The translations under genes were made by a program, and so were the position numbers. A DNA stretch of 45,679 nucleotides, taken from an uncultured Clostridia bacterium (GTDB lineage: Bacteria > Bacillota > Clostridia > Christensenellales > CAG-314). The stretch is from contig CANRHP010000008.1 in the NCBI GenBank assembly GCA_947630455.1, positions 1 to 45,679 of the forward strand. Direction: 5' to 3'. Under the pieces are notes generated by a model. That model was given only the letters and a program-made list of their open reading frames with translations, had not been told where the DNA came from and did not search any database. Below, piece after piece: positions 8,001 through 27,324 of the stretch. Every line of letters begins with the position of its first letter. Positions within the stretch are counted from its first letter, which is position 1.

Positions 8001-8300
8001 GCCGCGAGACACAATTGTTTGAACAGATACTATTATCAACACATTTTAATGGTCGTCACAAGACTGTACAAGCTCAACCAACCTATCGCCACAATATGAA
8101 ACCGGAAATTCAGATATAATACGAACAGATTTTAGGAAAAGAGGGATTATTCACATGGTTTTTTGTAACAGTGCGGAAATTGGCGGATGATAACGAAAAA
8201 GACTTAAAGCGGATTTGATATCTCAAAGCCACTTTAAGTCGATTTTTTTCATTTATCCTTTCGCAAGGTATCTCCCTGCCGAACAAATCTTATAATTAAA
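7984..8300. other. Intergenic region between the yabB-like gene and the large lipoprotein gene
   Basis: This 317-base stretch holds the minus-strand yabB promoter (7972-8000) and a bidirectional terminator hairpin (8196-8249). An isolated TATAAT lies at 8115-8120 on the plus strand. It could only drive an 11-codon frame starting at 8156, which I do not consider a gene. Nothing else is evident. Confidence 0.6.
8196..8249 (-). terminator. Terminator of the large lipoprotein gene (bidirectional shape)
   Basis: GACTTAAAG pairs with CTTTAAGTC (8201-8209 with 8232-8240), plus two inner G-C pairs. The stem is flanked by AAAAA on one side and GATTTTTTT on the other, so it can act in both directions. 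On the minus strand it follows the lipoprotein stop codon by about 60 bases. Confidence 0.75.
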
Positions 8301-11300
8301 TTATTTGTTTGTAATATTGCCCTCTGCATCGGCTTGGTATGTAACAACAACGCCGTTATAAGTTACCTTTGCAGTACTGTTGATGAATGTTGCGTCACCA
8401 CCCATATTGGAGTAAAAACCGGAAAATCCGCCAGCGATTACCGTTCCTTCAAAAGTAAAATCAGTCACGGTTGTTGTAGCTTGAGAGGGTTGTTCACTGT
8501 CTATATCGTACACAACATCGCCAAAGCAGGCATTCGCTTTTCCATCGGCGTTTGTAGCCTTGATTGTGCCGGTTGACTTGCAATCAGTATAAATGTTGCC
8601 GCCCTGCTCACGACCGACAATTCCGCCAACTGCGCTTTGTCCTTCTACATCTATGCTTGCGGTCAAATTGGTATATTTACCACCGTTTTTCCTTGTGATG
8701 CCTGCAATACCGCCCACGTCAATGCTGGAACCCTTTACAAAGCTCCCCTTGTCGGCATTTACCGTGATTTGATCGGCAACAGCGCCCATGTGACCCACAA
8801 CGGCTCCAACATAAGAACCTCCGGACACTTTTATATCGCCTTGCAGGGTGATTTTTGTCAAAGTCGGAGTACCGCTTGAGCCTGCGCGACCTACTACTGC
8901 GCCCAGATAACTGCTGCCCGAAACGTCTACATTTTCAAAAACGATATTTTTTACCGCACCGTTTCCAACCAGACGCGCAATAAATCCGGAGCCTTTGTCA
9001 TAAGTTTGAGATATCTTCAAATTTTTGATGATATGCCCGTTGCCGTCAAATGTACCTCCAAAAGACACATCTCCTTCCAGTTGAGAATGTCCAATAGGCT
9101 CCCATTCTTCACCGTTAAGGTCGATATCGTTTTCAAGATATGCTGTCCAACCGGCAAAATTCTTAACGTTGATAGAACCATGATAATTGTTTGCCACCCA
9201 TGCATTGACTTCATCACGCCACCATTTCAAACCATCCAAAGAGTAGATGCGAACAGTATTACTGCTTGCGTTCAAGATATAGTCAATACCAACGACCTTT
9301 ATCTCTACGGCAGCCTTGTTTTCAATGGAGATCAGAGGCGCTTCTGCGGGAATATAATATCCCCCAAGCCAATCGTCCGAAACATTTTTTATTTCCGTTT
9401 TGAATCCGGTGAAATCCAAGGTTAATTCGCATTTTTCATCAATAATTCCGGTAACGGTGGAGCTTGATGCGTTGAGAACTCCCGCAAATACACCGATTCC
9501 GCCCCAACTTTCCGAATATTCGTTGTCATCAAAGTCTTTTGCAACAACCGTTATCGTACCTTTCAGGGTGCAGTTTTCAATTTTACCGCCTTCACTCTGT
9601 CCCACAAAAACGCCTGCCTGTGAGCCCGCTGCGCTTGCGCCGTCTATGGTAAGATTTTTAATCGTACCACCGCCGAGATAAGCAACAAGTCCGCTTTTAT
9701 CTACGCTGTTGTGTCCTGCATTGAGGTTGTAAATCGTGTGTCCGTTGCCGTCAAAAATCAGCCATTGACCGTTTAACGGCTGCCATTCCTTTCCTTCGAG
9801 ATCAATATCTTCGGCAAGCTTAATCGTCACCGCAAGACCTTCGCCCGAACTGATAACATCACTGTTTCGTGCTTCGGCAAAAGCGACAAGGCTTTCGGCG
9901 GAATCCACGATATATGTTCTGCCAACGTCTATACCTATTCCGTTCCAAAGCCACTCAACCTCGGTCGCTTCATTTCCGGAGAATGTGGTGACAGGACTTG
10001 CATTTCTGCTGCCGCCTGCAATTATATTGTTTACTGTACGATTATCTACCAACAAAATAGTATTGATCGTCGCCTTAGAAACTGTGCAGTTGTTGATAGA
10101 ATTTATCGTTTCTTTATATTTGCCGCCGTTGTACTCACCGACAATACCGCCGACAAAACATTTGTTGCCCTTAGAGTATTCTTCCGTTGCATTAGAGGAT
10201 ACCGAACCGTCTGTGAAGCTGCTTTTCTCTATGCTTACGCCATAATGCAAATAACCAACGACTCCACCGACTTTACGTGTGCCTTCTACAGCCAATCCGC
10301 TGACCTCAATATTGCTTATGGTGTGCACTGCTTCACCGGTGTAACCGATAAAGCCGCCGACATTGTCACCCTCGACGTTGTTGCCCTCTTTCCAAATGCC
10401 TTTTATAAAGCTCCCGGCGCTGCCCTTTACGGAGCAATCGCTGATACGAACGTATCCGCCTCCGAGCATACCGCCCACTTTGTAGTTACCTGTAATTTGC
10501 ACAAGACCGCTTACATGACAATCCTGTACCGAGCCTGTAAACGCCGAGCCTATGAGAGCGCCGACATTGGTGCTGCCGATTACTGATGCATTTACAATAT
10601 TTACCCCTTTAACAGCTGCGGGACTCTCCACACATCCGAACAAGCCTACGTTGTCTTTATCGGGAGTGTTGATAAACAAATCGGAAATCGTTTTTCCCTG
10701 ACCGTCGAAAATACCCTTGAAGGTACTTCCGGTTTTTCCGATAGGTTCCCAATTTTCGACATACTCCAGACTGATATCCTCATCAAGATAAACGGTTTTA
10801 CCGGAGAAGGTGTCACCGGCATTTACCAATTTGCCAAATTCTACAAGCTCGTCAACATTGGCGATATGGTAGCCGTCCTTTTGTTCCTGCTCTTCGGGTG
10901 TGATTTCCTCAGACATATCCACAAGCCTTGTCCAAGCTTTATCTGTGTAGCGGTAAATTTCATACCCTGTGCGGTCTGCAAAGTCGCTGAAGGTGCGGAA
11001 ATAGAAGTCTCCCTCTCTTACATCCTCTAAATGACTTGCGTCCTCAGGCGCCACACTGCCGCTGAACCACAAGGTTCCGCGTTCCCCTTGCTCGCCCTTT
11101 TCTCCGGCTGCACCGTTGAGTGACGTCAACCATTCTTCAAGACTCAGAGGCTCCTTACCTGCGTTTTCCTCTTTCGCCTTGAACTGCTCTACATACAAAT
11201 CGTATGCCGACTTGCCGTCAACGCCTATCGCTTTGTATTCCGTCTTGCTCTCTCCAAAGTACCAATATCCGTCCTCCCCAATGTGAGGCGTGACACCGCT

Positions 11301-11732
11301 GACTCCTTGCAGAGAATCAAGCCATTCTTCAAGACTTCCACTGTATTCCGGGTGCTCTTGTTTGTACAACTCATACGCGGATTTTCCGTTTACTCCGTCA
11401 TATCCGTCGTATCCAGCAGCACCCTTAAGAGAAGCAAGCCAGTCCTCCAATGTACCGGTGTATTCCGGATGCTCCTGCTTGTACAGCTCGTAAGCGGACT
11501 TGCCGTCCACTCCGTTGTTTCCTGTCGCTTTGTACTCCGTCTTTTCATCGCCGAAGTACCAATAGCCGTCTTCTCCTACGTGGGGCGTGACGCCATCCTT
11601 GCCGTTTGCGCCGTCTTGTCCGTTTGTACCGTCCTTGCCGGGTGTGCCCTCACATGCCGCAAGCAGTGACACGGACAGAACAAAACATAGTGTCAGCACA
11701 ATGCACAACAATACTTTCGTTATTTTTTTCAT
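8301..11732 (-). CDS. Large surface lipoprotein with collagen-like stretch, internal repeats and GLUG-type repeats
   Basis: This 1143-aa protein begins at ATG 11732. An upstream in-frame ATG at 11753 is rejected because the AAAGGAG ribosome binding site lies between the two. A signal peptide ends in the lipobox LLAAC (Cys27), so the protein is lipid-anchored on the cell surface. Next come collagen-like Gly-X-Y triplets (about 29-47). Two copies of a VTPHxGEDGYWYFG unit alternate with three copies of a GKSAYELYKQEHPEY unit (about 48-210), followed by a second short Gly-X-Y run. From about 290 to the end, three blocks begin with patterns such as YLDEDISLEYVENWEPIG and FDGQGKTISDL. Each leads into GLUG-like repeats (GGIVG, GAVVG), which suggests an extended beta-helix. 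It is probably an adhesin or glycan-binding protein; this is inference. Its promoter contains a G9 tract. Confidence 0.85.
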   Translation of the reverse strand: MKKITKVLLCIVLTLCFVLSVSLLAACEGTPGKDGTNGQDGANGKDGVTPHVGEDGYWYFGDEKTEYKATGNNGVDGKSAYELYKQEHPEYTGTLEDWLASLKGAAGYDGYDGVNGKSAYELYKQEHPEYSGSLEEWLDSLQGVSGVTPHIGEDGYWYFGESKTEYKAIGVDGKSAYDLYVEQFKAKEENAGKEPLSLEEWLTSLNGAAGEKGEQGERGTLWFSGSVAPEDASHLEDVREGDFYFRTFSDFADRTGYEIYRYTDKAWTRLVDMSEEITPEEQEQKDGYHIANVDELVEFGKLVNAGDTFSGKTVYLDEDISLEYVENWEPIGKTGSTFKGIFDGQGKTISDLFINTPDKDNVGLFGCVESPAAVKGVNIVNASVIGSTNVGALIGSAFTGSVQDCHVSGLVQITGNYKVGGMLGGGYVRISDCSVKGSAGSFIKGIWKEGNNVEGDNVGGFIGYTGEAVHTISNIEVSGLAVEGTRKVGGVVGYLHYGVSIEKSSFTDGSVSSNATEEYSKGNKCFVGGIVGEYNGGKYKETINSINNCTVSKATINTILLVDNRTVNNIIAGGSRNASPVTTFSGNEATEVEWLWNGIGIDVGRTYIVDSAESLVAFAEARNSDVISSGEGLAVTIKLAEDIDLEGKEWQPLNGQWLIFDGNGHTIYNLNAGHNSVDKSGLVAYLGGGTIKNLTIDGASAAGSQAGVFVGQSEGGKIENCTLKGTITVVAKDFDDNEYSESWGGIGVFAGVLNASSSTVTGIIDEKCELTLDFTGFKTEIKNVSDDWLGGYYIPAEAPLISIENKAAVEIKVVGIDYILNASSNTVRIYSLDGLKWWRDEVNAWVANNYHGSINVKNFAGWTAYLENDIDLNGEEWEPIGHSQLEGDVSFGGTFDGNGHIIKNLKISQTYDKGSGFIARLVGNGAVKNIVFENVDVSGSSYLGAVVGRAGSSGTPTLTKITLQGDIKVSGGSYVGAVVGHMGAVADQITVNADKGSFVKGSSIDVGGIAGITRKNGGKYTNLTASIDVEGQSAVGGIVGREQGGNIYTDCKSTGTIKATNADGKANACFGDVVYDIDSEQPSQATTTVTDFTFEGTVIAGGFSGFYSNMGGDATFINSTAKVTYNGVVVTYQADAEGNITNK
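11223..11294 (-). repeat. Internal repeat, VTPHxGEDGYWYFG unit, copy 2
   Basis: These 24 codons encode VTPHIGEDGYWYFG plus the KTEYKAIG tail, matching the copy at 11520-11591 with about four changes. Confidence 0.8.
11307..11387 (-). repeat. Internal repeat, GKSAYELYKQEHPEY unit, copy 2
   Basis: These 27 codons encode a unit nearly identical to the one at 11424-11504 (differences only at a few positions, such as S for T and E for D). A third, more divergent copy follows with KSAYDLYVEQF. Similar units occur in tandem in Bacillota surface proteins. Confidence 0.8.
11424..11504 (-). repeat. Internal repeat, GKSAYELYKQEHPEY unit, copy 1
   Basis: First copy of the 27-residue unit, separated from copy 2 by the Gly-rich linker GAAGYDGYDGVN. 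High DNA similarity between the copies could allow recombination that changes copy number. Confidence 0.8.
11520..11591 (-). repeat. Internal repeat, VTPHxGEDGYWYFG unit, copy 1
   Basis: First copy of the 24-residue unit, directly after the collagen-like triplets. Together with the other unit it gives the protein a repeated N-terminal stalk. Confidence 0.8.
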
Positions 11733-11782
11733 TCCGTTTATGCTCCTTTGCATATTTAGTTATGTAATATAACTATGCCGCT

Positions 11783-11810
11783 ATTATAGCGCCCCCCCCC
11801 TCATTGTCAA
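11783..11810 (-). promoter_or_regulatory. Consensus promoter with a G9 spacer tract (large lipoprotein gene)
   Basis: On the minus strand a perfect TTGACA (11805-11810) and a perfect TATAAT (11783-11788) are separated by 16 bases. The spacer consists of ATGA, nine consecutive G residues and CGC. Gain or loss of one G by slipped-strand mispairing would change the spacer to 17 (optimal) or 15 bases and so alter transcription. Homopolymeric tracts placed like this are established phase-variation switches in other bacteria. The predicted leader is about 44 bases and carries an AAAGGAG site. Confidence 0.85.
11792..11800 (-). repeat. Homopolymeric tract, nine G residues (nine C on the plus strand)
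   Basis: The tract lies wholly inside the promoter spacer of the large lipoprotein gene. I noticed no other G or C run of comparable length in the window. Confidence 0.95.
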
Positions 11811-11885
11811 GAACTTGCGTAGTAGTTTTTAATTTATTTTAATGTTTTTTTGCAATTGTCCCAAATTTTATCAAAAAGTTGACAC

Positions 11886-11934
11886 AAAAAAAGTCTAAAA
11901 TAATTTTGACGTGTTTACCAAAATTACTTTAGAC
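11886..11934 (-). terminator. Terminator of the 371-aa lipoprotein gene
   Basis: A 15-bp stem with one mismatch (11893-11908 with 11919-11934) is followed on the minus strand by seven T residues. It lies 30 bases after the stop codon of the upstream lipoprotein gene and insulates the G9 promoter from read-through. Confidence 0.88.
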
Positions 11935-11963
11935 CGTTTATTTTATGCTTTCAGTACGAAAAT

Positions 11964-13079
11964 TTATCCGAGTCTTTCATCTAAATCGGTGTAAGTGTCG
12001 AGATCTGAAGGTAACGTTACCTTGTCGGCAGATATTTCCTGCTCCTCTATTACCTCGAGTTTAAAGCTGCCGCTGAGCGAAACGGGTACTGTGAGAGATT
12101 TTTCCACGTCAATATTTATTTCCACATCCACAACGGAGGAAAGCTTAGACAGTTTGTTATCCTTGTCAAACCCGATGAAAAACTCCGCCCGACACCTACG
12201 GAAAGAGACACATTTGTTTAACAAATCCGCGGTTTCCTTGGGAACAAGCTCTCGGTCGGCAAGAATTGCCTTGACGGTTTCCTCACTGACGCTTATCCTG
12301 AGCGCCCATCCGTTATCCTCCGAAACGGCAAAATCAACCTTGTACTGCTTGAGAATTTTGAGAATATCGGCTATTTCAACAGATAGCTGTGCCTGCAAAT
12401 CCGTAGCGTTTCCATCGGCGTCTGCAGAGTAACCGACAATACCTTCGAAAGGATTTCCATAATTCAGTTTGATTTTGTCGGAAGGCAATTCCACGCCAAA
12501 TTCCGCAAAGGCGCTTTTTAAACTCTCACTTAGGTGAGCATATACATTGCTGTTGTCCATATATATGCTTGCGCCATAGTTAAAGCTTTTAAGTAAATTT
12601 TGCAGCTTCAGCGTCTGCTCCTCATCAAGCCCCAACATATTCAACAAAACGCGGGGTATATTAAGTCCTCCTTTTACAGCGATATCGGCGGATGCCGCAA
12701 TATCTATACCGCTCTGTTCGGAGTAACCGACGCTTTGAAGAGAGTTGTGCTCAAGATTGAACGTACCATCCATTTCCATCTTGGCATCTTCGTAGTCAAT
12801 ATCTAAATCCGCTTCGAAATTGAGCTTGCCGTTTTGGCGAACATTCAACTGTGCCATCCATTGATCCGCAATAGTACCGTCACCGGGATCGTTAGATACG
12901 TTTGCCATTATCTTTGCGGAAATAGTATCAGCCAAATTTGCCTGCTGTTCGGGAGTATCCAGCTCCACATTTTTGTAAGTTCCCGGTATTGTGCCTTCTT
13001 TGCTGCTGCATGCGGCGAGAGTAAAAGCAGAAGTCGCAACCATTAACAAAACCAGCAGCAATATGAAAGTTCTTTTCAT
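11964..13079 (-). CDS. Secreted lipoprotein of unknown function, 371 aa
   Basis: This 371-aa protein has a classical lipoprotein signal peptide: positive start MKR, a hydrophobic core, and the lipobox LAAC with Cys24 followed by SSK. The mature part is rich in alternating polar and hydrophobic residues (for example KLNFEADLDIDYEDAKMEMDGTFNL and similar stretches), which suggests large beta sheets as in LolA/LppX-like or DUF-type lipoproteins. No catalytic motif is visible. An AGGAGAG site supports the start. The gene has its own promoter (13136-13163) and terminator. It lies upstream of the large repeat lipoprotein but is not in the same operon. Confidence 0.8.
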   Translation of the reverse strand: MKRTFILLLVLLMVATSAFTLAACSSKEGTIPGTYKNVELDTPEQQANLADTISAKIMANVSNDPGDGTIADQWMAQLNVRQNGKLNFEADLDIDYEDAKMEMDGTFNLEHNSLQSVGYSEQSGIDIAASADIAVKGGLNIPRVLLNMLGLDEEQTLKLQNLLKSFNYGASIYMDNSNVYAHLSESLKSAFAEFGVELPSDKIKLNYGNPFEGIVGYSADADGNATDLQAQLSVEIADILKILKQYKVDFAVSEDNGWALRISVSEETVKAILADRELVPKETADLLNKCVSFRRCRAEFFIGFDKDNKLSKLSSVVDVEINIDVEKSLTVPVSLSGSFKLEVIEEQEISADKVTLPSDLDTYTDLDERLG

Positions 13080-26912: not shown

Positions 26913-27251
26913 TCAACACAAATAATTTTCCGTATCAATAAAGAAAAGCAGAATTCCGGCTATGACGCTTACAAACAACAGCACGCACACCTTGAAACCG
27001 ACGCCTATGGGTTGACGACTTTCCAAACGGTTAACGACGCTGACAGTCATCGGAATCATCCAAGCGAGCGGGATAAGAAACGCGAAGCCGCCCAGTACGC
27101 AGGCAACTATCATAAATATCTTTATCACCATTATTAAATCCTTTTGGTCGGTGGCCTTAACGCCCTTGCCATTTTCAACACGGCAACCGCATTTGGGGCA
27201 AATTACCGCCTCGTCCAACAGTTCGTTTCCACAATGAGCACAGTACTTCAT
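26913..27251 (-). CDS. Zinc-ribbon membrane protein, 112 aa
   Basis: This small protein begins with a zinc ribbon (Cys4-x2-Cys7 and Cys18-x2-Cys21, MKYCAHCGNELLDEAVICPKCG split over the first 22 residues). A short linker and two membrane segments follow, at about 40-68 and 83-106. Such fusions are common in Bacillota and mostly uncharacterised; the ribbon may mediate protein contacts near the membrane. ATG 27251 is chosen because GTAGGAG precedes it; an earlier in-frame start at 27278 has no site. The gene has its own promoter and a 200-base featureless region downstream. Confidence 0.82.
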   Translation of the reverse strand: MKYCAHCGNELLDEAVICPKCGCRVENGKGVKATDQKDLIMVIKIFMIVACVLGGFAFLIPLAWMIPMTVSVVNRLESRQPIGVGFKVCVLLFVSVIAGILLFFIDTENYLC

Positions 27252-27296
27252 AGCTTTTTCTCCTACAAGCTGCAGCAAACTAAATTTTACACGTAA

Positions 27297-27324
27297 ATTA
27301 TACTACACACTTAAACACTGTCAA
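27297..27324 (-). promoter_or_regulatory. Promoter of the zinc-ribbon gene
   Basis: On the minus strand a perfect TTGACA (27319-27324) and a perfect TATAAT (27297-27302) are separated by 16 bases. The spacer contains GTGTGTAG, and with the -10 box it reproduces the 10-mer of the CvpA-gene palindrome. It starts 5 bases after the acyltransferase stop codon. Confidence 0.82.

Follow-up and report, generated by a model that had tools for sequence, protein, structure and literature searches.

The promoter and the lipoprotein gene behind it

The window, by which we mean the whole 45,679-nucleotide stretch of DNA analysed here, contains on its minus strand a promoter with a run of G residues in its spacer, followed by a lipoprotein gene. 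The features of this locus, each with the means by which it was identified, are as follows.

11805-11810, minus strand: -35 box TTGACA (direct reading and promoter scan)
11792-11800, minus strand: tract of nine G residues (G9), proposed slippage site within the 16-nt spacer (direct reading and run scan)
11783-11788, minus strand: -10 box TATAAT (direct reading and promoter scan)
8301-11732, minus strand: lipoprotein gene, 1143 aa (open reading frame, lipobox and Pfam)
11886-11935, minus strand: upstream intrinsic terminator, separating the promoter from the neighbouring gene at 11964-13079 (folding)
8196-8240, minus strand: probable downstream terminator, GACTTAAAG...CTTTAAGTC TTTTT (read by eye)

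The original prediction described perfect TTGACA and TATAAT boxes on the minus strand, 16 bases apart and with nine G in between, and on re-reading this proved exact. The spacer consists of ATGA (11804-11801), G9 (11800-11792) and CGC (11791-11789), a total of 16 nt. The site scored 12/12 in a promoter scan, the highest of the 21 promoter-like sites found between 8000 and 16000, where shuffles gave an expectation of 12.6. Its G9 tract is the only G or C run longer than six in the 45.7-kb window. A mononucleotide tract of at least eight bases between the -35 and -10 boxes, the arrangement that characterizes SSR-mediated transcriptional phase variation, is thus found at this site. The whole genome (G000; 1.39 Mb in 53 contigs) has ten exact TTGACA-N16-TATAAT sites, compared with one for the reversed pattern. 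Searching these for further G runs, as had been proposed, returned the window site only (1/10).

Translation of the gene starts at an ATG at 11732, with AAAGGAG upstream. As had been predicted, the promoter is followed by a lipid-anchored repeat protein of 1143 aa, which has a signal peptide with lipobox LLAACEG, short collagen-like GxD repeats and GLUG motifs. The protein is a member of the GLUG-motif family (Glug, PF07581; 27 bits against a cut-off of 20.5), while its score for Collagen (PF01391; 14.3 bits) lies below the cut-off of 27.2, leaving short GxD repeats only. Searches with this protein against solved structures and NCBIfam each returned zero matches.

Folding backed the earlier claim of a terminator between the promoter and its upstream neighbour: the A/U-rich segment 11884-11940 folds at -18.2 kcal/mol (z -6.8). 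Considering this terminator and the probable one downstream, the lipoprotein gene seems to be a one-gene, monocistronic unit. An exact-seed scan for inverted repeats of at least 10 bases found 0 pairs in 11500-12100, where it also missed the G-U-rich terminator stem, since exact seeds are required. Given that no inverted repeats flank the promoter in this region, we rejected phase variation by promoter inversion.

Recurrence of tract promoters in the genome, the genus and the order

We mapped 27 runs of at least seven G in G000, with lengths of 8 (one tract), 9 (nine), 10 (twelve), 11 (three), 12 (one) and 18 (one). None of the mapped runs was exactly seven, and one more contig-edge tract, from the control column, was left unmapped. 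TTGAC was located 2-14 nt upstream of 12 of the 27 tracts, compared with 0.36 expected from resampling (500 draws, sd 0.60, maximum 3). The mirror-image arrangement was seen at 0/27. The twelve include L083 and L096, where the -10 box is doubtful, and exclude L095, which has TTGAAA.

We then used the pattern TTGAC-N4..12-G7-N0..8-TATNAT, with seven or more G, as a search for tract promoters. In the genus, 20 of 25 genomes contained it, 76 times in all, and its reversed control had no match. The C-tract version had three matches in 2/25 genomes. G is strongly favoured over C on the non-template strand (74 typed tracts versus 3, p 1e-18). Within the family, the pattern occurs in 23/41 genomes and 3/11 genera. 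An even draw across the order gave matches in 64 of 297 genomes (190 matches, summed from the table; reversed pattern 0), with a maximum of 11 matches per genome in G071. The rest of the phylum was near chance, with 12/397 genomes having one match each and the reversed pattern having seven matches in 6/397, in a sample where the same class, outside the order, is represented by just 14 genomes. Tract promoters are frequent in the genus of the window and in some other families of the order, and these counts indicate that the class is a property of the order as far as sampled. The reversed-pattern controls and the resampling led us to reject chance as its source. We likewise rejected a phage origin: of 2.9 million viral contigs, 68 carry the forward pattern, 48 of these with no more than G7, and their spacers are scattered.

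Position and length were typed for 74 of the 76 matches in the genus, after two alternative readings of the -10 box had been dropped, and for 80 of the matches listed for the order beyond the genus. Alternative readings in G161, G227 and G242 and five matches from the family's other genera were left out. The tract touches the -10 box in 56/74 genus promoters. Among all typed matches its distance to the -10 box ranges from 0 to 8 nt and its length from 7 to 18. G9 accounts for 42/74 tracts in the genus and for 58/80 elsewhere in the order, among the matches listed.

Downstream genes, tract lengths and spacer lengths

Reading downstream from 68 of the tract promoters of the genus identified an ORF behind 64 of them and none behind four. 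A hydrophobic N-terminus was present in 49/64 of these ORFs compared with 9/37 ORFs of the window (Fisher p 4e-7), and a lipobox in 20/64 compared with 3/37 (Fisher p 0.007). Export was called by a hydrophobicity rule and the lipobox by a regular expression, without SignalP; the 37 control ORFs were picked by length and Shine-Dalgarno site, and there may be false genes among them. Among the 15/64 ORFs without an exported look are ABC transporter and cytoplasmic genes. A family of exported proteins with an MTxTxxWK-type signal peptide lies behind tract promoters in several species; a Pfam scan of three of its members found no domain.

Two relatives of the window lipoprotein also have a G run upstream. 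In G018 the run is cut off by the end of the contig, which leaves 5 G, and is followed by TAGGCGTATAAT. In G019 the promoter of a lipoprotein gene reads TTGACA-ACCGCAA-G10-TAGAAT. The tract is absent upstream of the in-genome paralogue L208, which has an ordinary promoter, and of relatives L210, L212, L214 and L215; the upstream DNA of L213 was unreadable and excluded. Elsewhere in the window, the gene of a zinc-ribbon membrane protein (PF13240; P0002, gene 26913-27251, region 26913-27324) is preceded by a perfect TTGACA-N16-TATAAT that lacks a tract. In G004, G001 and G017, relatives of P0002 carry G-tract promoters, which suggests that tracts may come and go. In the orthologue series, 16 upstream regions were tried and 11 read, with a tract in 2/11 and L222 as the third; this gain and loss is shown only loosely because the family is multi-copy. 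At another locus, the upstream neighbour DNA of L128 (G012:C51) and L079 (C4 of G000) is 87% alike over 1154 bp. The two lead to different exported-protein genes, both behind tract promoters, with G9 and G11, respectively, and the exported-protein genes seem to have been swapped there.

Tract lengths differ between otherwise similar promoters. The paralogous G000 promoters L086 and L100 are identical over the 12 nt on either side of the tract and have G11 and G9, while three G000 genes with an MTHKLHGKT-type start have promoters with G11, G9 and G10. Otherwise alike promoters of the MTxTxxWK-type family have G8, G9, G10, G11 and G18. In G019, near-identical upstream DNA precedes tracts of G18 and G10, and in G073 the flank TTGACAAATTACT carries both G10 and G9. 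An orthologous promoter has G10 and a spacer of 16 in G000 (L085, C18) and G9 and a spacer of 15 in G012 (L281), counted to the hexamers TAAAAT and TACAAT; G012 is ~96% identical to G000 at another locus. Identical promoters near contig ends (G006, G009 and C24/C40/C49 of G000) were not counted as signs of a constant length, since such repeats can be copies made by the assembly. Within G000, 12 promoter tracts (L095 and L096 included, L083 excluded) and 15 other tracts did not differ in length (Mann-Whitney p 0.50), as a shared mutational equilibrium predicts if slippage sets them.

Some G000 tracts lie outside promoters. At L097 (G000:C42:6648-6659), G12 lies shortly before the start codon (ATG) of a lipoprotein-like gene, where L279 (G002) has a GGAGG Shine-Dalgarno site. 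This is a possible translational switch. At L088 (G000:C20:2804-2813), G10 lies in a frame, which we take to be GH4-like, that ends shortly behind the tract; in five relatives there are at most 5 G at this place, and the site resembles a coding-frame switch that is OFF. Both tracts look like fresh gains. The longest mapped tract, G18 at L075 (G000:C2:78590-78607), is in frame and lies in the first part of a long reading frame whose beginning resembles a signal peptide. Finally, two pairs of G tracts lie on opposite strands ~120 bp apart (G000:C4:80707-80715/80827-80837 and C40:8185-8193/8307-8316), each consisting of one tract promoter and one tract without a recognisable -35 box.

Spacer lengths also set tract promoters apart from ordinary ones. 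Within one set of fetched sequences, ordinary promoters (fewer than six G in a row) had spacers of 16 (11), 17 (37), 18 (7), 19 (1) and 20 nt (5), and tract promoters of 16 (10), 17 (5), 18 (23), 19 (15) and 20 nt (6). A spacer of 17 was thus present in 37/61 ordinary versus 5/59 tract promoters in the range 16-20 (17 versus 16+18+19, Fisher p 8e-10). This comparison dropped L001-L010, which were fetched by their N16 spacer, viral loci and L071-L074. Elsewhere in the order, among the matches listed (80), spacers were 15 (14), 16 (24), 17 (4), 18 (17) and 19 nt (7), so that 17 is scarce between two peaks, with 10/154 typed matches, the order part again being among the matches listed.

The ordinary preference for 17 fits the proposed ranking of G10 over G9 over G8 at the window promoter, where the spacer is 16 and one added G (G10) would make it 17. 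The clustering of tract promoters at 18-19 and at 16 suggests that the optimum of poly-G spacers may differ. The distribution can be read in two ways: either the usual length is one slip off the optimum and these promoters are weak by default, or the optimum itself is different for poly-G spacers. On the first reading, the order would share a standard, reusable switch promoter, made of a -35 box, 7-9 bases, a non-template G9 and a -10 box over many exported-protein genes, whose equilibrium length is one base off 17, so that it would be weak by default and one slip from full activity. We regard this reading as tentative, somewhat short of an even chance; if it is true, each cell would make its own chance selection of surface proteins. 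The second reading is a variant of the same switch in which the optimum lies near 18 nt and the usual G9/G10 tract would correspond to ON, not to a weak state. Tract promoters do peak at 18-19, most sharply where the tract touches the -10 box, and the longest porA tract tested in Neisseria meningitidis, 11G, was the strongest (PMC3639595). Conversely, other families have a second peak at 15-16 with few promoters at 17, and the window promoter itself is at 16. We consider an 18-nt optimum possible, at slightly less than even odds. The scarcity of 17 between 16 and 18 provides a quantitative handle on whether contingency promoters are weak by default.

A candidate contingency switch and its relation to known systems

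We suggest that the window site is a transcriptional contingency switch, in which slipped-strand changes of spacer length cause phase variation, and that it is part of a multi-gene system, with a probability of roughly 0.84. Slipped-strand mispairing during replication would add or remove G residues in the tract and thereby shift the spacing between the -35 and -10 boxes (15 nt for G8, 16 for G9, 17 for G10 and 18 for G11). The changed spacing would alter promoter strength for the surface lipoprotein. The site would belong to a lineage-wide promoter set, commonly TTGACA-N7..9-G9..10-TATNAT, ahead of mostly exported-protein genes, and the selective reason may be a mixed surface coat. The core of the original prediction, a slippage-prone spacer tract before a surface-lipoprotein gene, finds strong support in an architecture that recurs across the genus and order, mostly at exported-protein genes, and with lengths that differ between paralogues and orthologues; that lengths vary within a population, as it also implies, is inferred.

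Loss of mismatch repair was considered as the driver and rejected. mutS1 was matched in 38/41 family genomes and was above the cut-off in 34/41, G000 included, which suggests that slippage in G000 would be limited by repair. Within the genus, G019, which has a G18 promoter, was the only genome without a hit, and G015 had a weak one. Besides the presence of mutS1, the missing tract at L208, L210, L212, L214 and L215 and the 15/64 downstream ORFs without an exported look count against the switch.

The dominance of G9 in several families could also mean that the tract is a fixed cis element, such as a regulator site or DNA-shape element, of conserved length and without switching. Slippage alone does not predict that non-template tracts should so strongly favour G over C (74 versus 3), and this bias points the same way. 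A fixed element is nevertheless unlikely, considering that the tract's position in the spacer varies from 0 to 8 nt from the -10 box, that its length spans 7 to 18, that coding and other G000 tracts share the same length spectrum, that paralogues and orthologues differ, and that tracts have appeared outside promoters too, at a Shine-Dalgarno site and within a coding frame. A chance G run in an ordinary constitutive promoter would agree with the ordinary promoter design of paralogue L208, but the enrichment is far above chance and is absent elsewhere in the phylum sample, which contradicts it for the class; for the window site it is highly improbable. Least credible is a sequencing or assembly artefact of two-colour poly-G calls: some tracts do lie at contig ends (L086, L094, L209 and the unmapped one) and G runs are hard for short reads (PMC9187656), which can still blur exact lengths, but 25/27 mapped tracts are 100 bp or more away from the ends of their contigs, spacer tracts occur in 20/25 genomes and never in the reversed pattern, and a tract is kept at the orthologous promoter of another genome.

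If the contingency-switch reading is correct, it predicts cell-to-cell surface mosaics that can be checked in existing metagenome reads at hundreds of promoters. Most of what is known of the lineage seems to come from metagenome assemblies. To our knowledge, homopolymer phase variation that acts on many genes has been described mainly in Gram-negative pathogens and mycoplasmas. The original prediction called such promoters little described in Clostridia, and this fits our search of the open literature, which found no report of slippage-tract promoters in Clostridia or in the order among titles and abstract beginnings.

Spacer-tract switches are known from Bordetella fim. Meningococcal porA has a poly-G tract between the -35 and -10 boxes and expression graded by its length, with 11G > 10G > 9G; the meningococcus has MutS, and a mutS mutant switches faster (PMC3639595). 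Like porA, the window site has a G tract in the promoter spacer of a surface-protein gene. Unlike in that Gram-negative pathogen, there are up to 11 matches per genome here, and in the genus the tract usually touches the -10 box. The poly-C tract of Neisseria fetA is likewise in the core promoter, where 6C is not variable and 8C or longer is, so that at least eight bases mark the variable form (PMC13293289). It is a C tract, whereas here the tracts are G and C tracts are rare (3 versus 76 matches). Campylobacter jejuni NCTC11168 has 29 tracts of at least seven, with assayed lengths of G8-G12, a number per small genome similar to the 27 mapped here, but 23/29 of its tracts lie within the main body of a reading frame, whereas ~12/27 here lie behind a -35 box (PMC4965091). 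In the Gram-positive gut commensal Bifidobacterium breve, slippage at G10 and G11 tracts affects pili, which are likewise surface structures; the tested tracts are intragenic frameshift switches, unlike the window promoter, and the authors mention promoter-spacer tracts elsewhere (PMC9187656).

Within Clostridia, phase variation is described for the flagellar switch of Clostridioides difficile (PMC8890394) and for the transcription of its pdcB and pdcC genes, which have invertible promoters (PMC11868660). Unlike these site-specific inversions, the window promoter has no inverted repeats. The Clostridia switches in the literature cited here are inversions (PMC11868660), whereas the lineage of the window has many tracts that are in promoters and not in reading frames.
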